From positions 1 through 45,263 of the forward strand of contig NC_013224.1 in the NCBI RefSeq assembly GCF_000024325.1: DNA of 45,263 bases. The letters run 5' to 3'. How positions within the stretch are numbered: position 1 is the first letter of the stretch; the number at the start of each line of letters is the position of its first letter. Made by a program: the position numbers and the translations under genes. The DNA is from Desulfohalobium retbaense DSM 5692 (GTDB taxonomy: Bacteria; Desulfobacterota; Desulfovibrionia; Desulfovibrionales; Desulfohalobiaceae). Below the pieces are notes generated by a model. It worked only from the letters and a program-made list of their open reading frames with translations. It was not told the DNA's origin and did not search any database. Below, piece after piece: positions 2,838 to 39,185 of this stretch.

Positions 2838-3653
2838 ATGGCTATCATTTCGCTGGTTAACAATAAAGGCGGTGTCGGGAAAACGACTATGACTGTTAAC
2901 CTGGCACACGCTTTGGCCAATCGCCAGAAAAATGTGCTGGTTATTGACTTAGACAGCCAATGCAATTCATCTTCGCTACTTGTAGATAATAAATTTGTCG
3001 AAGAATCACTCTACGATATCCTTAACGGAGAAAATGATGACATTGGTAAAGCTATCTACTCTACTCCTTATGATCGCCTCAAATGCTTAGCAAATGAAGA
3101 AGAAACGAGCGCCCTTGAATTTGACTTGTCTGCAAACCTTCCAGACAATTATAATATTTTAAGGGCTAATATAAAAGAATATGTTAATGATAAATTTGAT
3201 TATACATTAATAGACTGCCCACCAAATTTAGGTTTCTTTGTTATAAATGCTTTAGTTGCCTCAGATTTTGTTATTGTACCTGTCATGTGCGGATCTAGAT
3301 TTTCAATTGAAGGTCTGACTAAAGCTATTAAATTAGTTCACTATATACAACAAGAAGACGATAATGATCCAACCAGGGTATCTAATCCAGATCTACGTTT
3401 TCTTAGGCTCGCTATAAACAGCATTGACAAACGGACCACAATGTCCAAGGTCATCCTGGAGCGTCTTAAAAAGAATTTTGGTGAAGATCAGATATTTGAA
3501 ACAAATATTGGTATGAGTACAGTATTCCACCAAGCAGAAGACTTAAACAAAACAGTTATCCGCCACGCACCGAGATCAGTCGGAGCCCGAGCTTACAGGG
3601 ATCTAGCCAAAGAACTTTGCGGGGTTCTTGGCGATAGTGATGAAGGGGAATAG
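2838..3653 (+). CDS. parA: ParA-family ATPase next to the iteron-bearing gene
   Basis: From ATG 2838 (after AAGGGG at 2826-2831) the protein has 271 residues. It has a complete deviant Walker A ([12 protein letters not shown]), Walker A' (VIDLDSQCNSS) and Walker B (YTLIDCPPNLG). It is a different lineage from the 207-residue ParA at 6987, longer and more AT-rich. It ends three bases before the 488-residue winged-helix protein, forming a two-gene operon. It would position plasmid copies by ATP-dependent binding to the nucleoid, with the downstream protein or its repeats as the cargo adaptor; alternatively it works with a replication initiator, as in many parA-rep operons. Confidence 0.88.
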   Translation: MAIISLVNNKGGVGKTTMTVNLAHALANRQKNVLVIDLDSQCNSSSLLVDNKFVEESLYDILNGENDDIGKAIYSTPYDRLKCLANEEETSALEFDLSANLPDNYNILRANIKEYVNDKFDYTLIDCPPNLGFFVINALVASDFVIVPVMCGSRFSIEGLTKAIKLVHYIQQEDDNDPTRVSNPDLRFLRLAINSIDKRTTMSKVILERLKKNFGEDQIFETNIGMSTVFHQAEDLNKTVIRHAPRSVGARAYRDLAKELCGVLGDSDEGE

Positions 3654-3656
3654 CTC

Positions 3657-5123
3657 ATGGCCAAGAAAAAAAGACGCTCCCTCTACGACACATTATCCGC
3701 ACGGGATAGCGGACAGGACGATGAGCTTCGAGAGACATTTAAACGTGTACGTGAAATCAATACAAAACAGTCCACTGAAACCACCCCTCCATCTGAGAAC
3801 TCCAATAAAAAAGTCCAAGCCCAAGACAAGAGCCCATCTGGACCGCTCATTCATACCGCCCAAACAAACCGCTCAAACATACCGATTACTCATTCAGATC
3901 AACAAAGTAATAATAAAGAAAATAACAAATCAAAACAAGAATTTAACAAAGATAGCCTTGGTGACACAAACCGCTCACCTAAAGCGCCCACAAATACCGC
4001 TCAAAACAACCGCTCAAGCAAAGCGCTCGCTAATACCGCTCAGGTAGACCGCCCAAACAAACCGCTCGAAAACAACCATACCGCTCATTTAAACAGCTCA
4101 AATGAACCGTTTACTCGAGCGCTTCGAGCGCAATCATTGAGCGGTACTAATGAGCGGTATGCCCAAGCGGTACAAATGAGCGGTTCAGAGGAGTCACATG
4201 AGCCCACTGAAGACCCTCAAAATATCCTCCTAAAACCCAAATCTTCCATCAGATCTAGAAACCAAAAAAAGATTTTTGACTACCTTCAGCGGATTGGCTC
4301 CCAAACGACCACCCTTACATATATATCTAATATTACTGGTGTTCCGTACAGCACAACGAGACGAATAATAAGCAAATTTAAAGCTGAAGGGCTTATTTAT
4401 TACAGAACGCTGTTCGTTAAGGACGTAGGCTGGTGCGCAAAAATCTGGATAATAAATTCAGAAGGCGAGACACCCAACCGAGCGGTACAAATGAGCGGCA
4501 TAAATGGGCGGTATGAATGGGCTGTATCAAACGCCTCTAAGATAGATAGAGAATCTATCTATCTAAAAGAGGGGGGTGTGGGGGGAGATGGGCAAGATCA
4601 ACCTGACAACTCATCCTCTTCTAGTGAGGCTCGTCTCAACCAGCTCACCGACGAAGATATTGCTTTCTTTTGGCCAAAGCTTCACCAATCTGGTTTTGGA
4701 GCTCACCAGGTCCAGCAAATCGTTCAAAGACTTTCCAAGGTGGATAAAAAAGCCGACAAAGTTATCCAGGGGCTTGATCACGCTGAATGGGAACTAGATC
4801 AGGGAAAGATGACTGACAAAGAAGGTAATCCCGTAGGGAATCCATGTTCTTACGTGTTCAGTTCTCTAGCCAGAGAAGGCTATTATCGTCGTCCATCTGG
4901 ATATATTTCCCCGGAAGAACAAGCTGAGCTGGATGCCAAGGAAGAAGCTGATAGGCTGCAACAACTGGGGAAAGAGAAAAAGGAATCTCAGTTTAAAGCA
5001 TGGAAGGCAAATTTGTCGGAAGAGGAGTTAAATCAAATTTTGGCTTGTAAAACTCACAAAGGACCAACGGATCCGTGGCTTAGGCAATATTGGGAAAAGA
5101 CTATTTATTATACAACAAAGTAA
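3657..5123 (+). CDS. Winged-helix plasmid replication or partition protein containing an iteron array
   Basis: A 488-residue protein. Residues 1-180 are polar and probably disordered (rich in N, Q, T, S), and this stretch is encoded by the 13-bp iteron array. Residues ~200-265 form a winged-helix domain (RNQKKIFDYLQRIG, ISNITGVPYSTTRRIISKFKAEGL, then a strand pair YYRTLFVKDVGW). The C-terminal third is charged (ISPEEQAELDAKEEADRLQQLG). An origin inside the initiator gene, as in the phage lambda O gene, is the closest known layout, so I favour a replication initiator; a centromere-binding partner for the ParA gene 3 bases upstream is the alternative. I cannot name a family for the C-terminal part. 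Confidence 0.6.
   Translation: MAKKKRRSLYDTLSARDSGQDDELRETFKRVREINTKQSTETTPPSENSNKKVQAQDKSPSGPLIHTAQTNRSNIPITHSDQQSNNKENNKSKQEFNKDSLGDTNRSPKAPTNTAQNNRSSKALANTAQVDRPNKPLENNHTAHLNSSNEPFTRALRAQSLSGTNERYAQAVQMSGSEESHEPTEDPQNILLKPKSSIRSRNQKKIFDYLQRIGSQTTTLTYISNITGVPYSTTRRIISKFKAEGLIYYRTLFVKDVGWCAKIWIINSEGETPNRAVQMSGINGRYEWAVSNASKIDRESIYLKEGGVGGDGQDQPDNSSSSSEARLNQLTDEDIAFFWPKLHQSGFGAHQVQQIVQRLSKVDKKADKVIQGLDHAEWELDQGKMTDKEGNPVGNPCSYVFSSLAREGYYRRPSGYISPEEQAELDAKEEADRLQQLGKEKKESQFKAWKANLSEEELNQILACKTHKGPTDPWLRQYWEKTIYYTTK
3842..4525. repeat. 13-bp iterons with ACCGCTCA core, inside a coding gene
   Basis: The 8-mer ACCGCTCA occurs exactly at 3842, 3868, 3970, 3996, 4009, 4035 and 4080, and inverted (TGAGCGGT) at 4138, 4151 and 4177. 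Near matches fill the gaps so that starts are exactly 13 bp apart: 3842-3881 (4 units), 3970-4061 (8 units), 4080-4106 (3), inverted 4138-4177 (4) and inverted 4479-4518 (4). Since 13 is not a multiple of 3, successive units are read in different frames, so the DNA and not the peptide is conserved. An AT-rich stretch (3898-3957) separates the first two blocks. Candidate oriV or parS. Confidence 0.88.
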
Positions 5124-5197
5124 TTTTTTTATGTTTGTCTATATCTTTATTTTTCTAATTGTATAACCCGAAATATTTAAAAAGATCATTAATAAAT

Positions 5198-6566
5198 ATG
5201 ACCGTAGCAACAGTCACGGTTGGCAGACACTCTGAGCTCCGGGGGGCACCGGAGTCGATTCTTCGTCGGATTCGGGAGGCAATGACCCTGGAGAATCCCA
5301 AGTATTCTCAGGCAGAACGATTTGGGCGTTACACCGGGGCTCTGGATCCGGTGATTGAGCTTTGGGAGGACATACCAGGTGGGGTGGCATTCCCCCGTGG
5401 CTGGACCCGCCATGCCATCGTTTTATTACAACGAGCTGGGATCCAGTGGAAAATCGACGACCAGCGACGCGCCCTCGACCCGGTATCCTTTTCTTTTGTC
5501 GGAAAGTTACGGGACTCCCAGGCTCAGGCTGTACAGGGTGTTTTAAGTCGGGATTTCGGAGTATTGGAGAGCGGGACCGGATCCGGCAAGACCGTCATGG
5601 CTCTTGCCGTTATTGCCGAGCGCCAGCAACCTACCTTGATCCTCGTACACAACAAGGAACTGCTGCACCAATGGCGGGAACGGATCAAAGCCTTCCTTGC
5701 CCTGGATAAGGTGGGGCAGATCGGGGACGGGAAGGCAGAGGTCCGACCAGTGACCGTGGGCATCGTCAACAGTGTCAGAAAACGCCTGGACAGCCTCCCT
5801 GAGAGCTTCGGGCACCTGGTCGTGGGATGAGTGCCACCGCACCCCGTCCACGATGTTCACAGAGGCCGTGAAGGCGTTTGACTGTCGCTTTATGCTTGGC
5901 TTGAGTGCCACGGCCTACCGCCGGGACGGTTTGACCCGGCTGATCTACCTCACCTTGGGAGATCGGACTCACTGGGTAGACCCGCAGCGGCTTCGAGAGA
6001 TCGGGGCGGTCCTGACGCCGAAGATCATACGCCGGGAGACTGTATTCCAATATGACTACGCCGACGACTACCCGGCAATGGTCAGCACCCTAGCCGAGAA
6101 CGAGGACCGAAACCGGCAGATTGTTAATGACGTGATTGCCCAAGTTCAAGATCAGGCTGGTACCGCCCTGGTGGTCAGTGACAGGGTGACCCACTGCGAG
6201 GCCCTGGCGGAGCTTGTGCGGGACGCAGGACAAGGGGCCGAAGTGTTGACCGGAAAAACCCCGAAGGAGGGGCGAGAGCGTATTGTGAATGCTATCCAGG
6301 CCGGGAAAGTGCCGGTGTTGTGTTCGACCATCCAGCTTTTGGGTGAGGGGTTCGATTGCTCTGGCCTGTCCAGTCTGTTTTTGACTACGCCGGTGCGCTT
6401 CAGGGGGCGGTTGCTCCAGATCGTGGGCCGGATTCTCCGCCCTGGTACGGGCAAGCGCCCCAGGGTCTTTGATTATGTAGATGTCCACGTGGGGCTGTTG
6501 CAGCACCAGGCGCAAAAACGGGCACAGGCTCTAGAAGGGGTGGTATATGGTGCGGCTTCTATTTAA
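5198..6566 (+). pseudogene. SF2 DEAD/DEAH helicase, frameshifted at Walker B
   Basis: The 5' part (from ATG 5198, ending in TGA 5828-5830) has a Q-like and Walker A region (LRDSQAQAVQ, SGTGSGKTVMAL), motif Ia (LILVHNKELLHQW). The second part restores motif II (DECHRT), motif III (GLSATAYRRDG), IV-V (ALVVSD, STIQLLGEGFDC) and VI (QIVGRILRPGTGKR). Removing one G from the GGG at 5824-5826 would fuse the two into one ~456-residue Res/RecG-like helicase reading LVVDECH. The lesion lies exactly in the catalytic DECH box. It could be real decay, a sequencing error or a frameshift site. Two further relics of this gene are at 39295 and 44292. Confidence 0.8.
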
Positions 6567-6986: not shown

Positions 6987-7610
6987 ATGATTATTTCACT
7001 GCTCAATCAAAAGGGCGGTGTTGGGAAAACCACCCTGGCTGTCTCGTTGGCCGGCCAGCTTACTCAACTGGGGAGCCGGGTGCTTTTGATCGACGCAGAC
7101 CCCCAGGGATCCGCCTTGGATTGGGCCGCAGCCAGAGAAGGAGAGCCGCTGTTTCCTGTGGTGGGACTGCCCAGGCCCACAGTGCACAAAGAAATTCAGG
7201 GCTTCGTCGGGGATTACGACCATATTGTGATCGATGGGGCGCCACGGGTCACGGACCTGGCCCGGTCGGTCATCATGGCCTCCGATGTGGTGGTCATACC
7301 AGTGCAGCCCTCGCCCTATGACATTTGGAGCGCCGAAGAGGTGGTGGGCCTGGTCAACGAGGGAGCTATTTATAAGGAAAAACTAAAATCATGTTTTGTA
7401 ATAAATCGTAAAATCGTAAATACGGCGATTGGACGAGATGTGAAGGAGGCCTTGGCAAATTATGATCTGTCCATATTGGACGTCACCGTGGGCCAGCGAG
7501 TGGTGTTTGCTGAAGCCGTGGCCTCTGGGCTGGTCGTTTCTGAGGTGGCTCCAAAAAGCAATGCCGCCACAGAGGTTAAGGCATTTGCAAACGAGTTATT
7601 GAAATTCTAG
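6987..7610 (+). CDS. parA: ParA partition ATPase, intact copy 2
   Basis: A 207-residue ParA of the short type that lacks an N-terminal DNA-binding domain. It has Walker A at residues 9-16 (KGGVGKTT), Walker A' ([15 protein letters not shown]) and Walker B ([10 protein letters not shown]). The start follows AAAGGGG with 6 bases spacing. It forms an operon with the RHH gene 9 bases downstream, the classical type Ib partition layout, where the small RHH protein does the DNA binding and repression. It shares ~440 nearly identical bases with the broken copy at 28, after which the two diverge, suggesting gene conversion. An AT-rich stretch coding [15 protein letters not shown] is conserved in both copies. 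Confidence 0.92.
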
Positions 7611-7619
7611 GAGCATAGG

Positions 7620-7847
7620 ATGGCCAAAAAGGTAGGATTGGGACCAAAACCCTCGAAAAAATCTGATGGGGATAAAAGACAAGATGCCTGGGTGTCCGGG
7701 GAGGACAAAAGTGCCGAGAAAAAGAAGCGCCTAACCATCGACATCCCTGAATCGCTTCACCGGAAAATCAAAGCTGATTGCGCTATACGGGGAGCGAAGA
7801 TAGCTGATGAGATCAGGGTTCTTTTGGCTGAGAGGTATGACACCTGA
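7620..7847 (+). CDS. ParG-like ribbon-helix-helix protein, copy 2
   Basis: A 75-residue paralogue of the protein at 661, with a Lys-rich N-terminus and the RHH segment RLTIDIPESLHRKIKADCAIRG. It follows parA by 9 bases with an AGGAGCATAGG ribosome region. It likely binds the YGYATTT sites upstream of parA, represses the operon and recruits ParA. The two RHH proteins differ at many positions outside the RHH core, so they may have separate binding specificities. Confidence 0.8.
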   Translation: MAKKVGLGPKPSKKSDGDKRQDAWVSGEDKSAEKKKRLTIDIPESLHRKIKADCAIRGAKIADEIRVLLAERYDT

Positions 7848-32182: not shown

Positions 32183-32692
32183 AACAGAACCACCTTTTTT
32201 TAAAATTAAAAATGTAGACCTACAAAACCTTAAAATTTAATGTTATATTTATATTCCTGGTAAAAATTTTTTAGTCATTAAATAACGTAACTATTTATCT
32301 TATAGCATTTTATATAAACAGCTATCAATAATTCTCATTATTCTTAAGGATCAGAAAAGAAACACCTCGCTAACTGGCCATACACTACTTGTCAATGCAC
32401 TATCCTGGTTTCTCTGTGAATATACTTAACGGAGTCATTAAGAGGTCAGGCGGTGATTTTCGGCATTTGAAGGCTGGTTAGCGGATAGCCCATGTTCAGA
32501 TATGTCGTTTGTCTAAAAAATAGCGGCACCATATTAACTACAGCAGTAGCTTATCGTTACCGCCAATTTACCTTGCCAGGAGAGCAAATAAATTTGACGG
32601 GAGGACTAGCTAGGAAAGGGAAGGGCTGCGAATGTCGCTAGCGCAGAAAGGGTGTGGTGGTCAATCTGTTGTGGAAGGGTTAGGCAGCGTAA
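32183..32692. other. Region between DUF262 gene and repeat array, no gene seen
   Basis: The first ~150 bases are AT-rich and must hold the DUF262 promoter. The rest contains no supported ORF. Confidence 0.5.
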
Positions 32693-33851
32693 TGTGAATG
32701 GTATGTCGATAGAGTATTAACGGTTTGTCAATACACCGTCAATGGCTTGCTATGGTTTATCGATGGCCTATTGAGGGATTGTTGACGGAAAATCAAGAGG
32801 TCGTTGATGATCCGCTATGGTTTGTTGACGATTTGCTATGATTCGCTAAGGGTTGTTGATGGCTTGTTAATACTCGCCAATAATATATTAGGATTACTGT
32901 ATTTTTTCGATCAGGGGTTTCAGAAAAAAAAGTGAGTGACGACTTGAAGTATGACGATTCGCCGGTGGGTAGAACCAGCATAAAGCTCCTGATGGCAAAA
33001 CAGGAAAGGTTAATCAACGCAATGTGAATGGTCTGGCGATAGGGCATCAACGGTTTGTCAATACTCCGTCAATGGCTTGTCAATACTTGCCAATAACATT
33101 ATGGAATTGCTGTGTTTTTTTAGGACAAAACCAAACCAAAGAAGACAAGGAAAGGGGTAATCAACGCCATGTGGATGGTTTGTCAATATGGCATCAATGG
33201 TCTGTCAGTGCCTCATCAATGGCTTGTCAATAGTCTGTCAATACTTTGTCAATACTTTGCCAACAAACCCCTAGAATTAATGTGTTTTTTGCGCTAGGGG
33301 CGACCAGAAAATAAGTATGAATGGCAATTTAAGGCGTGGCTGATTCGCTAGAAGGGTAGGGCCAATAAGGGGGATTGGCGGCAAACTGGGAAAGGTTAAT
33401 CAACGCAATGTGAATGGCTTGGCGATAGGAAATCAACGGTTTGTCAATACCTCATCAATAGCCTGTCAATGGTTTATTGATGGCCTATCAACGAAATATT
33501 AAAAATGTGTGAATAAAAAATTATGGTTTTTCAATACTTTGATATGTTTTGTCGATAAAAAATAGATATTTAGGGACAAAAAGTTGATGATGTCGGTACG
33601 CCCTGGGGCTTGGGCCTGAAAGCAACAGCCAGTTGGAGGCCGGTAAGAATGAAAGGTTATAGAGCATTGACAACCCGTTGATGAGGTATTGACAAATCAT
33701 TGACAAAGCATTGACGAAAAATTGAGAGGTCGTTGAAAATTCATTATAGGTTATTGATGATCTGTGGACAGATAGTAGATAACCCATTGATGGGGAATTG
33801 AGAGGGTGTTGATGGCCTATTGACGCTTAGTTGATGGCCTATTGATGAGAG
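32693..33851. repeat. 11-bp iteron arrays (about 60 units in five blocks)
   Basis: Tandem 11-mers close to TGTCAATACTT / TGTCAATGGCT. Blocks: A 32693-32886 (about 17 units, a few 10 bp); B 33012-33099 (8); C 33159-33268 (10); D 33398-33496 (9), all forward and in B-D exactly 11 bp; E 33666-33851 (17), inverted (ATTGACAAAGC). Blocks B-D each begin with AATCAACGC and are joined by spacers that are partly alike. Nothing here codes convincingly. The unit length equals that of the ParR-binding repeats of plasmid R1 parC. Candidate centromere or origin. Confidence 0.9.
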
Positions 33852-33989
33852 GTGGGCAATCGAAAGGGTGAGCCAAGCAAGATCAGCGGTGTCCCTGGAC
33901 GTGGTTGATGTTCCAGAATTATGGAAAAACAAAAAAAATGGGACACCTGAAAAATTCAGATGCCCCTTAAATTATTGCATTTTTTTGGG

Positions 33990-35640: not shown

Positions 35641-35877
35641 ATGACATTCTTTCTTATATTTAAATTTTCTAAACTTCACTACTTTTCATTAGCATCATCA
35701 TTGGATGTAACAAAGCGTAGCCTCAAACAAATCGACATTGCTACCGTTGTCTATGCTGACGGAAGCCTGTTCGCCCGTTGGCTGAACGACAAGCGGATTA
35801 TGCCGCAATCCGTCGAACACGAGGTCATGTATATTTTACGCCTCTTCAATGAGCATCAGAGGAAGGGGCTTCAGTGA
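35641..35877 (+). CDS. Small protein in an operon with the primase-helicase
   Basis: 78 residues. The second half (QIDIATVVYADGSLFARWLNDKRIMPQSVEHEV) looks like a short HTH-type fold. Its TGA overlaps the next ATG (TGATG), so it is coupled to the primase-helicase. The N-terminal 20 residues may not be translated; a later start is possible. It could regulate or load the replication protein. Confidence 0.5.
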   Translation: MTFFLIFKFSKLHYFSLASSLDVTKRSLKQIDIATVVYADGSLFARWLNDKRIMPQSVEHEVMYILRLFNEHQRKGLQ

Positions 35878-38800
35878 TGCGGGTTTCAGGCCTTGTCGTC
35901 CAATTCAAGACCGCCTATTCTTCCAAAAAAAAGAGTTGGCAGACGTTGTCCCTCGATAAAGCCGAACAATCTATCTTCGGTTCCGTGGGGATTGATAAGC
36001 TGGCCTCGGGGGAAGCCGGAGTATGGCTCACACCCCGAGCACACGACAGCGCCGGAGACACCTGGCACATGGCGTGGTGGGACGTGGAACACCCCGACGA
36101 ACACCACACCAGTATCGAGGCCAATACCCGTACCGCCCAGGACCTTTTCATCCAACTGGATGGACTCGGCCTGGCGCATGGACTGTCTGTCGTTTTATCC
36201 GGAAAGGGGTTCCGTTTCCTCTGGCCGTTTGTAATCCCATCTGACTACACCAAGGCCTACCGGGCCATGATTACCGACAAGGGCCAATGGGTAGGACTCG
36301 ATCCCTCGCCGCACATGGCTCCAAACCGGTGGTTCCGCTTTCTTGGGTACCGGGGGCACCGCAAGCAAGACACCAACCCCAAAGATCGCCATATCCACCT
36401 TTTGGAGCACCCTGCCCACCTCCTGGATCTCACAGAGACAACGTATCTGGAGTTAGTGCAAGGAAAACCGGATCCGGCCACATTTCGCCCTTGGATGCGG
36501 AGGCTTTTGCCCCACACCACAGAGCCGCCACCGGAATGGGTGGAGTTACTGAAAAAATACAACGACATTCTGCGGCTACGATCGCATATCGTGAAGCTGA
36601 ATTTCCCCAAGAAGCCGAAACCTAGAGGAGTGGACTGGGCGCAAATAGAAACCTTCCTTACCCAAAAGGGGATCCGTACCTGGGACATGCAGGACAACGG
36701 GGAAATCTTCTATCGCTTAACCGAATGCCCCATGTGTGGCCGGAGGGATGGTAATCCCTGGATGACGCAAGCCGGCCGGCTCAAATGCTTCCACGCAAAC
36801 ACCTGCCCGGCTGGAGAAGAACACACCGACCTGCAGGGGCAGACCTTCAAAAAAGGCTTGCCGCCGGAAAAGTGGGTCGAAGGATACCAGGAGATAGAAG
36901 TAAGCCCTCCCGTGCAAGAAGACCAACGGGAGAAGACGGACGTCAAAACCGCCAGAGAACGCATCCGGGACGCTCTGCGCTCTGACGAAGACGTATTGAT
37001 TCGGGCTGCCCCAGGGGTGGGCAAGACACACACCACCTTGGAAGAGATCCTGCCTCAATGCCGGGATCGACTCGTTTTGTTCACAGTTCCCAAAGGGGAG
37101 AACGTCGCCGAGATATACGAAAAGGCATTGAGCCTGGCGCCGGAAGGCGTTGAAATCCGCAAGATCAGGGGACGCAGGCGAGAAGAAAACGGTTCAGGAA
37201 CTTTGGATTTCAACCCTCCACCGGAGGGGATCTGCTACAACATGGACTATGTAGAAGAAGTGGCCAATTGGGGCTACTCTCCAGGGTTGATTTGCTGCAC
37301 CGGGTGCGAGCACCAAAAAAATTGCCCCTACCAGGAACAATTCAAGTCCCTCCCGAAAACCGGACTTGTCATTGCAGCGCATGAAAGCGCTGTTTCCCTG
37401 CCTAAAAAACGCCATTTTGATCTCTGGGTAATCGATGAAAACCCTGTGGCGTCTCTTCTTCAAACCAAGACCGTTTCGCCCGGGGCTCTTTCACAAATCA
37501 GGGCCAAACTACCCCGGAGGTCTGAATTGCCTTTGGATACAATCAAGGCTCAGGGCGAAGGCCTCTTGAAGTATCTCGCAGGAAACCAACACGAAGGCCG
37601 GATCTATGCCACTACGCCGCCAGCCGAATGGAAGAACACGGAAAGTGTCTGGGAGCTCGGAGGAATCGAAAGCCATAAAACACCGTTTGCCGAAGATTTG
37701 AGCTGCTTCGACCAACTCGAAGAAGAAAACCTCAAGCAGTGGCAGAAGCGGCTGTACTACAGCGAAAAGGTAAATTTTACCGCTTTGGAATGGCTCTGGA
37801 CCGCCACAGGACAACAGGCAGGGGTGGCCTATATCAAGGCCCGGGCAGACCGGAAGCACCCCATTTCCTATGTCCTGCACCAAACCAAAGCCCCAGGCAT
37901 GAGGCGGGCAAACCAGGATGGCAGCGAAACCAAAACCCGAATCGTGGCTCTGGACGGGACCGGCAACAAACAAGAACTGGAAGCGCTCTTCCCAAATCGT
38001 TCCTTTGCCGAGGTGTCGGCTGATGTGGATCTTCCGGGCCGCAGGGTCCACCTTGAATACAACCTGAGCAAAACCACAGTCTGTGGGGCAGAGAAGTACA
38101 AAAAAACCCCGATGGCGCCGCAGCACGTCAAAGCCAAGCTCAAAGAGGGGCTCAAATGCCTTCGTACCGAGGAAAAGCGTGTGCTGTTGGTGACGTTCAA
38201 GGACGCCAAGGAAACAGTGTTGCGGGCAGCGCAGAACCTCGATCCAGGTCGCACCTTTGAGGTGACACATTTTTGGGGCAACCGGGGGCTGAACTGCTTC
38301 CAGGAATGCGACGCCGTTATCTGCTTCGGCTCCCCTCGGGTGGCACCGCACAGCGTCAAAGACATGGCCTCCAGTCTGTTCGACGATACGGAGCAGCAGA
38401 AGGCCTGGACCGAACAACAGGGGCACCGGGACGTGGTGCAGTCCATTCACCGGATCCGGCCAATTTACTCCAGAAAGTCCGTGATCGTGATGGGCGATTT
38501 TTGGCCGGAGCAGTTAGGGACACCACAATTCCGGATTCGGGCTTATCAAAAGAATGGCGCCTTTGACCTGGCCTTGGAACGGCTCAAGCTCGTAGCGCAG
38601 ACCTACGGCTTTGTGACCCGGGAGCTTGCCTGTTTACACGGGGTGTTCTGCCGGGTGGATACCCAGAGCATAGCTAAGTGGATGGAACTCCAGAAGCGCT
38701 TCCGGGAAAAGCTCGAAGAAAGTCCATCTGAATTTGTGTTCTTTCCTATAAATATATTTCTTATAGGAAACCACACAAATAAAAATGGACTTTTGGACCC

Positions 38801-39185
38801 GATCAAGCTGAAGGACACTCACGCTTGGAATGACCTGGTGTCAGCCCTCGAGCTTGAGCTTGGCTTTCCGTCTCTGACTGAGCGGCAAAGTACTGGGGCA
38901 GGAAGACCGAGCCGTGGAGTGGGGACTGTCAGCGCTGCACGGCGGTTTTACCACGCTCTGGGTGTGGTCGTTTTTGATGAATCCCTCTGGTCCGGCCAGG
39001 AGCATTTTTTCGAGATCCCCGTAGGGAAACTCAAAAGGCGGGTGCTGCCCGGGCAGGGCCTTTTTGAAGCGCGGAGGGCCAAGTCCGTACTGTTGGGATT
39101 CACCTCAGAAATCCGACACCGGCAACAAAAGCCACCGATAGAGGTTTTCAGAGATCAACAGTCGTCCTTGGCAGCTGTGGTGTAA
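35877..39185 (+). CDS. Primase-helicase replication protein (AEP-like plus DinG/XPD-like)
   Basis: 1102 residues. The N-terminus resembles an archaeo-eukaryotic primase: WWDVEHPDE (metal-binding acids), VVLSGKGFRFLW, APNRWFRFLGYRGHRK. Residues ~282-312 are a zinc finger (CPMCGRRD ... CFHANTCPAG). The helicase part has Walker A RAAPGVGKTHTT (~375), a Cys cluster ICCTGCEHQKNCPYQEQ that recalls the Fe-S domain of XPD/DinG, Walker B WVIDENP (~515; DEN not DEAH) and a motif-VI-like SIHRIRPIYSRKS. It would prime and unwind at the plasmid origin. Starts at ATG 35877; GC-rich, unlike its neighbours. Confidence 0.75.
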   Translation: MRVSGLVVQFKTAYSSKKKSWQTLSLDKAEQSIFGSVGIDKLASGEAGVWLTPRAHDSAGDTWHMAWWDVEHPDEHHTSIEANTRTAQDLFIQLDGLGLAHGLSVVLSGKGFRFLWPFVIPSDYTKAYRAMITDKGQWVGLDPSPHMAPNRWFRFLGYRGHRKQDTNPKDRHIHLLEHPAHLLDLTETTYLELVQGKPDPATFRPWMRRLLPHTTEPPPEWVELLKKYNDILRLRSHIVKLNFPKKPKPRGVDWAQIETFLTQKGIRTWDMQDNGEIFYRLTECPMCGRRDGNPWMTQAGRLKCFHANTCPAGEEHTDLQGQTFKKGLPPEKWVEGYQEIEVSPPVQEDQREKTDVKTARERIRDALRSDEDVLIRAAPGVGKTHTTLEEILPQCRDRLVLFTVPKGENVAEIYEKALSLAPEGVEIRKIRGRRREENGSGTLDFNPPPEGICYNMDYVEEVANWGYSPGLICCTGCEHQKNCPYQEQFKSLPKTGLVIAAHESAVSLPKKRHFDLWVIDENPVASLLQTKTVSPGALSQIRAKLPRRSELPLDTIKAQGEGLLKYLAGNQHEGRIYATTPPAEWKNTESVWELGGIESHKTPFAEDLSCFDQLEEENLKQWQKRLYYSEKVNFTALEWLWTATGQQAGVAYIKARADRKHPISYVLHQTKAPGMRRANQDGSETKTRIVALDGTGNKQELEALFPNRSFAEVSADVDLPGRRVHLEYNLSKTTVCGAEKYKKTPMAPQHVKAKLKEGLKCLRTEEKRVLLVTFKDAKETVLRAAQNLDPGRTFEVTHFWGNRGLNCFQECDAVICFGSPRVAPHSVKDMASSLFDDTEQQKAWTEQQGHRDVVQSIHRIRPIYSRKSVIVMGDFWPEQLGTPQFRIRAYQKNGAFDLALERLKLVAQTYGFVTRELACLHGVFCRVDTQSIAKWMELQKRFREKLEESPSEFVFFPINIFLIGNHTNKNGLLDPIKLKDTHAWNDLVSALELELGFPSLTERQSTGAGRPSRGVGTVSAARRFYHALGVVVFDESLWSGQEHFFEIPVGKLKRRVLPGQGLFEARRAKSVLLGFTSEIRHRQQKPPIEVFRDQQSSLAAVV

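Follow-up and report, generated by a model that had tools for sequence, protein, structure and literature searches.

The window, as we call the whole stretch of DNA analyzed here, is the entire 45,263-bp contig NC_013224.1, which accompanies the 2.86-Mb chromosome of a Desulfovibrionales genome. A parA gene on its forward strand (2838-3653) encodes a Walker-type ParA ATPase of 271 aa (Pfam AAA_31, 1.2e-43) from which the N-terminal HTH extension is absent. The parA stop codon lies 3 bp ahead of the ATG of an open reading frame on the same strand (3657-5123), which codes for a 488-aa protein, has ~70 relatives, and is referred to here as the putative initiator gene. Searches of Pfam and NCBIfam returned no named full-length family for this protein, which consists, in order, of an N-terminal tail, a disordered-looking linker encoded by iterons, a winged helix-turn-helix (wHTH) domain, a second iteron-coded linker, and a C-terminal domain (CTD). 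Two A+T-rich segments of the forward strand may act as unwinding elements, namely a 60-bp gap between iteron blocks (3885-3944, 20% G+C) and a segment spanning the end of the gene and the DNA beyond it (5095-5154, 15% G+C). No match to DnaA boxes was found near the gene. In the DNA that follows, the ORFs at 5159-5830 and 5772-6566 overlap in different frames and jointly resemble a single ResIII/DEAD helicase; they may represent one gene split by a frameshift. Further, we note two closely similar pairs of ParA and ParG-like (ribbon-helix-helix) genes at 109-888 and 6987-7847, apparently a duplication; the first pair is truncated where the record begins.

Iterons within the putative initiator gene are constrained as DNA

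The preliminary description of this locus had reported ten exact copies of a short repeat, seven forward and three inverted, with near copies at 13-bp steps in blocks within the gene. Our recount of ACCGCTCA, the core of the 13-bp unit, was identical (seven copies on the forward strand and three on the reverse), and all ten lie within 3842-4184, inside the 3657-5123 gene, compared with 0.92 copies expected in the whole window; none of 100 dinucleotide shuffles reached ten. A weight-matrix scan recovered the near copies as well and gave 21 sites in the gene, 13 of them forward (3840-4103) and 8 inverted (four at 4113-4186 and four at 4476-4527), with most consecutive steps measuring exactly 13 bp. 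The forward sites form block A1 (3840-3878), which has three 13-bp units, and block A2 (3968-4103), which has ten units in 13-bp steps with one step of 19 bp; on the reverse strand, the four units at 4113-4186 are followed by block B (4476-4527), in which the four units keep strict 13-bp steps. At the same matrix threshold, the remaining 43.8 kb of the window contained 44 scattered matches (~1 per kb). We have very high confidence that the gene contains an iteron array.

The 21 sites are spread over the three codon phases as 7/7/7. In 30 shuffles that kept the protein and its codon usage, the score for lags of 13, 26, and 39 bp had a mean of 0.9 and a maximum of 5, compared with 18 for the actual gene, and the commonest 8-mer, present 10 times in the gene, had a mean count of 3.1 and a maximum of 5 in shuffles of this kind. 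Because the units preserve their cores and differ in the five bases of the spacer, and because the array is lost in synonymous shuffles, it is the DNA and not the peptide that is constrained. The claim that the DNA is what is conserved was thus upheld, with all three codon phases in use and no enrichment of sites in the flanks.

The encoded protein combines a predicted winged helix with a conserved helical domain

The wHTH is encoded at 4230-4466 on the forward strand (aa 192-270) and was recognized from weak Pfam HTH matches, an AlphaFold2 model with a pLDDT of 84, and the wHTH folds that this model matches in the PDB. The expectation that a winged helix would be encoded just downstream of the array holds for the main array, but block B follows the wHTH code, so that the latter sits between the two. 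In a Foldseek search, the best match of the wHTH model was AspA of pNOB8, a centromere binder (E 1.8e-3), which is one among many similar wHTH matches, TubR-like ones included.

The CTD, encoded at 4629-5120 on the forward strand, is all-helical (AlphaFold2 pLDDT 96.7) and, at ~160 aa, the most conserved part of the protein in the alignment of its relatives. No fitting family for it was found in Pfam, PHROGs, or NCBIfam, and Foldseek searches of its model against the PDB and viral models returned nothing significant. Kinship to DnaD was suspected from a conserved pattern and from a weak VIA match to the DnaD domain 2i5u (Z 3.0 over 65 aligned residues, which is low for a helical domain) but found no support when profiles were compared, where E values were 0.09 or worse and thus no better than in a control comparison of the CTD with the wHTH (E 0.076); the DnaD reference consisted of four DnaD-type phage proteins, a small and partly mixed set. 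We infer that the CTD is the part of the protein that recruits the replisome.

Relatives change the iteron word and keep the period

Searching with the protein and then with a C-terminal alignment yielded ~70 relatives, mostly from Desulfovibrionales and many on plasmids directly behind parA, which precedes the homologue in most plasmid relatives and often overlaps it. The family was found in 48 of 348 genomes of the order and in five further genomes elsewhere in the phylum sample, the phylum scan yielding few relatives outside the order; relatives were absent from viral contigs. A literature search found no description of this gene family, although such absence is weak evidence.

Most parA-linked relatives have in-gene arrays with a period of 13 bp (L047, L048, L050, L029/L037/L110, L039, L066, L030/L143, and L032) or based on 12 bp (L106, L107, L033, L146, L147, L148, and others), above their synonymous-codon nulls; the 13-bp lag score reached 147 in L050 (null maximum 24) and 189 in L047 (null maximum 39). 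The arrays are largely confined to the gene, with 29 sites inside and none outside for L047 and 33 inside and one outside for L032. The iteron words differ: in place of ACCGCTCA in the window we found cGGACAGGA in L047, ACCGGACA in L050, CAGACAAA in L029, CACCCGAA in L048, AATCCAACAcAC in L030, and TGAnCCGAC in L106 and L038. The preliminary description had held that relatives keeping the protein and scrambling the spacing of the repeats would speak against a role of the DNA; most parA-linked relatives instead change the word and keep the 13- or 12-bp period, and some relatives have no tandem array, a clear array being absent from the parA-linked members L115, L124, L034, and L041. Short chromosomal homologues without parA also lack arrays. 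Homologues on ICE/IME-like elements without an adjacent parA retain the CTD, and in a traG-linked ICE-like group (L128, L129, L121, and L141; two members examined and two further members) we counted 11-15 TGATACC sites in the gene versus 0-2 in ~3.4 kb of flank. These sites occupy two codon phases and both orientations, many as inverted pairs ~16 bp apart. In-gene sites thus do not require parA, since this group keeps them without an adjacent parA gene.

The linkers look disordered and repetitive, and the arrays could accordingly be repeats at the protein level, or slippage repeats in a disordered linker, or else operators for autoregulation, which is common among initiators in general, in each case with no role in replication or partition. 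The 12-bp families would fit this reading, as their peptide repeats in frame (DPTxDPT in L038, for example), and for this reason the arrays of L038 and L109 do not clearly exceed the synonymous null. The 13-bp families, however, use all codon phases and both strands, their spacers vary while their cores are constant, and their arrays are lost in synonymous shuffles; further, the iteron word tracks the wHTH (see below), and the sites lie far inside the gene and not at a promoter. We consider it very improbable that the arrays are of this kind and are confident that they function at the DNA level and are read by the encoded wHTH.

Several members deserve mention in their own right. The gene of L055 (G082:C6, 2694-4775) has a dense CAGGACACC pattern with lags of 19, 20, and 39 bp, unlike the 13- and 12-bp arrays, and the distant homologue L148 (G594:C42) has a near-perfect 12-bp array and, ahead of the CTD code, an inverted repeat with 25-bp arms (CCCTAGTAGTAGTAGT.../...ACTACTACTACTAGGG). 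Six contigs (G094:C2, G077:C2, G327:C3, G088:C15, G326:C11, and G158:C3) carry two family members each, with different in-gene repeats in the cases checked, as expected of fused replicons. On the RefSeq plasmids with L032, L033, and L034, the annotated starts lie far downstream of where the longest open frame begins, so that the annotated protein lacks its iteron-coded half; for L033, an ORF on the opposite strand is also called. Genes of this kind are easily missed in RefSeq, where the part encoded by iterons is truncated or not called.

The wHTH and the iterons appear to be exchanged as a cassette

Among 23 members, iteron similarity followed wHTH identity when CTD identity was held constant (partial r 0.61, 0 of 5000 permutations), compared with 0.14 (p = 0.07) for CTD identity with the wHTH held constant; these are Mantel-type tests, which do not fully remove shared ancestry, and the motifs of some members are imprecise. 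The proposal that the gene encodes the binding protein of its own array is thereby supported indirectly. Pairs with CTDs that are 74-91% identical can have unrelated wHTHs and iterons, as in L066 and L107, where the CTDs are 91% identical, the wHTHs 17-18%, the ParA proteins 40%, and the iterons unrelated. Identity between ParA proteins, too, tracked the wHTH (partial r 0.66) more closely than the CTD (0.40), both correlations being significant. In the pairs L066/L107, L047/L107, L066/L106, and L048/L107, the DNA match resumes at most 11 bp from an in-gene inverted repeat; because some members are common to several pairs, the four are not independent exchanges.

In the window, this inverted repeat is AGATAGATAGA-GAA-TCTATCTATCT (4540-4564, forward strand), which is also a strong predicted RNA hairpin (folding z -6.4). 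Its position and type are kept in many relatives and coincide with the boundary of the exchanged cassette. The best inverted repeat of the region beat its own synonymous null (p <= 0.05; 40 shuffles each) in 40 of 77 members, a number that includes other sites, namely TGATACC pairs in the ICE-like group, and is therefore somewhat lower for the AGATAGATAGA-type element itself. The arms differ among members with pairing kept, a co-variation that is biased because the segments were preselected as inverted repeats; the per-member synonymous null is the fairer test. The repeat may be an exchange point, an origin element, or an mRNA hairpin. Overall, we conclude that, at the level of sequence comparison, the arrays, the constraint on their DNA, the covariation of wHTH and iterons, and the exchange of cassettes with its boundary are established.

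The related plasmids point to a probable replication origin

The preliminary description had left a choice between origin and centromere, and the evidence leans to an origin, or to both functions. We searched seven related plasmid records with Rep_3 and RPA models and found no match on pDMC2 (8.9 kb), D. sulfodismutans p1 (51.7 kb), D. bizertense (72.6 kb), pDMC1 (58.7 kb), pDsulf-L2-2 (109 kb), or pDsulf-L2-1 (175 kb); D. sulfoxidireducens p1 alone had a Rep_3 (PF01051) match, and annotation there names an initiator. The genome of the window itself had no Rep_3 match. Nor was an initiator family found among the unannotated proteins of pDMC2 and D. sulfodismutans p1 or nine proteins of the 21-kb G094 plasmid; pDMC2 encodes two DnaB_C proteins. 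Searches for the TrfA and RepA_C families gave no match, but their controls were silent too, so that they are uninformative. These plasmids may still carry another initiator, of an unrecognized type.

Because the iterons are themselves strand-biased, we relied on GC skew only after masking parA and the gene, even though this makes the signal weaker (unmasked, four of seven contigs have their skew minimum within the gene). With masking, the module lay at the 0-9th percentile of detrended cumulative GC skew in 6 of 10 plasmids, and the best module copy at the 22nd-35th percentile in the other four; the seven single-module plasmids combined gave p = 3e-4.

A second candidate replicon is present on the window plasmid. 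Its 1103-aa protein, encoded at 35874-39185, shows hints of a primase zinc ribbon and a helicase, and beside its gene, at 33050-33860, stand TTGTCAATA-type repeats in both orientations with ~11-bp spacing. The gene at 3657-5123 could encode a centromere-binding protein with an in-gene centromere and no more, replication being left to another gene, here that of the 1103-aa protein with its 11-bp repeats. The parA neighbor and the AspA- and TubR-like matches of the wHTH would agree with this, as would the masked skew minimum of the window, which falls at 32430 and not at the 3657 gene, and the 10.5-kb plasmid pDCAR2, which has a homologue of the 1103-aa protein and no detected member of the 3657 family. 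It is, however, difficult to reconcile with the several complete plasmids that have no other recognized initiator, with the lack of any match to the 1103-aa protein on pDMC1, pDMC2, D. sulfodismutans p1, or the G094 plasmids, and with the CTD, which is better conserved than any other part of the protein and is retained on elements that lack an adjacent parA. We regard a role in partition alone as improbable. In our view, the 3657-5123 gene is probably a plasmid replication initiator with the origin inside its own coding sequence. Against this stand the second candidate replicon of the window and its masked skew minimum at 32430, the members without arrays, the four plasmids in which the module lies higher on the skew curve, the lack of DnaA-box matches near the gene, and the absence of sequence similarity between the CTD and DnaD-type phage initiators; given the candidate replicon at 33-39 kb, an initiator encoded at 3657-5123 may share this plasmid with another one or be inactive on it.

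A possible second role as the partner of ParA

The putative initiator could also serve as the ParB-like partner of ParA, with one in-gene array being both origin and centromere, a reading that overlaps the initiator role and does not exclude it. In most plasmid members, parA is directly upstream and often overlaps the gene, and ParB_N was absent from all seven related plasmid records, where the control was positive, as well as from the window plasmid, the matches in its genome being chromosomal only; small centromere-binding proteins of the ParG or another type, however, could have escaped this search, and the window plasmid has its two further ParA/ParG-like pairs. Clusters of at least 20 sites would suit a centromere. 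That ParA identity tracks the wHTH above the CTD also fits, but linkage alone could account for such co-inheritance, parA and the wHTH code being on one side of the exchange point. AspA as the best Foldseek match of the wHTH also fits, tempered by the many similar wHTH matches beside it. Lastly, a basic, amphipathic N terminus opens many parA-linked members, and the ParA-binding peptides of ParB proteins are likewise basic and amphipathic (PMC12462528). This resemblance is striking by eye, but a regular expression for the motif matched 18 of 31 parA-linked and 14 of 40 parA-less members (p = 0.06) and did not separate the groups, so that we keep it as a suggestive hint. We consider the double role a possibility whose chances fall short of even. 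It is rather doubtful, and a little more so than the double role itself, that a dual initiator and ParA partner has its replication and segregation specificities swapped jointly, as a cassette of parA, iterons, and wHTH, at a dedicated in-gene inverted repeat.

Discussion

The initiator gene of phage lambda, O, contains its origin between the DNA-binding domain and the CTD and had been put forward as the nearest precedent for the arrangement described here; it is not the sole one, as the layouts of pSK41 RepA_N and Tuc2009 Rep come no less close. No domain of lambda O or of phage replisome organizers was found in the 488-aa protein with Pfam, and CTD members had no convincing PHROGs match. The lactococcal Tuc2009 Rep likewise has an origin in its gene between the DNA-binding domain and the CTD, where its record notes "contains origin of replication" and has 15-bp repeats. 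These repeats, however, are in frame, its CTD is Pfam Rep_Org_C, which is absent here, and both Tuc2009 Rep and lambda O belong to a phage context without ParA. AspA and TubR are small winged helices that read clustered repeats beside the gene of a partition NTPase. They share with the present protein a winged helix of similar fold, a match that is generic for wHTH domains; they are not known to have a large conserved CTD or an in-gene array of sites.

RepA_N of pSK41 resembles the present protein in having a wHTH, a linker encoded by an in-gene origin with Rep boxes, and a separate helical CTD (PMC5703833). In both, the repeats lie in the linker code of the rep gene, here as 21 in-gene sites to which binding is predicted. 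In plasmids of the pSK41 type, the linker that the origin encodes is not needed in the protein, and pPR9 represents a natural swap of the N-terminal domain and origin against a constant CTD (PMC5703833). The 488-aa protein differs in having just weak generic HTH matches and no Pfam RepA_N match, in having 20-30 units of 13 or 12 bp, placed before as well as after the wHTH code, where pSK41 has four boxes, in following parA, and in a CTD without a confident match to RepA_N or DnaD. The repABC operons of alphaproteobacteria also have a ParA-type gene upstream and an origin inside the initiator gene repC, but they encode a separate ParB (RepB), and their origin is without iterons (PMC3155836); here, a single gene follows parA, ParB_N is absent, and the iteron arrays are large. 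By our analysis, the family appears to resemble pSK41 RepA_N, Tuc2009 Rep, and lambda O in layout, without a convincing match to their family domains, and its sequences suggest that dense, out-of-phase iterons flanking the wHTH, the coupling to parA, and the exchange of cassettes set it apart from the known initiators with in-gene origins.

We envisage that the protein, translated behind ParA, would use its wHTH to bind the 8-bp iteron cores that flank the code of this domain, that an ordered protein array would assemble on the iteron DNA, that the adjacent A+T-rich DNA would open, and that the conserved CTD would recruit replisome factors of the host or of the plasmid. The iteron-coded linkers would then be under constraint as DNA rather than as protein. 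The wHTH and iterons would constitute a cassette that determines specificity and can be exchanged, with the AGATAGATAGA inverted repeat as its junction to the conserved CTD, and its exchange would let plasmids switch incompatibility group.

If the gene is indeed an initiator, Desulfovibrionales and some other members of the phylum would have an uncharacterized family of initiators on their plasmids and related integrative elements. Most plasmid replicons of this group are left untyped, and among the carriers of the family, pDsulf-L2-2 has several predicted antibiotic-resistance genes. The family would also amount to a natural experiment on how a DNA-binding domain and its sites evolve in one gene and are swapped as a unit, so that sequences could reveal both the wHTH-to-DNA code and plasmid incompatibility. 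Further, one could test directly whether a single protein and a single DNA site can serve replication as well as partition.
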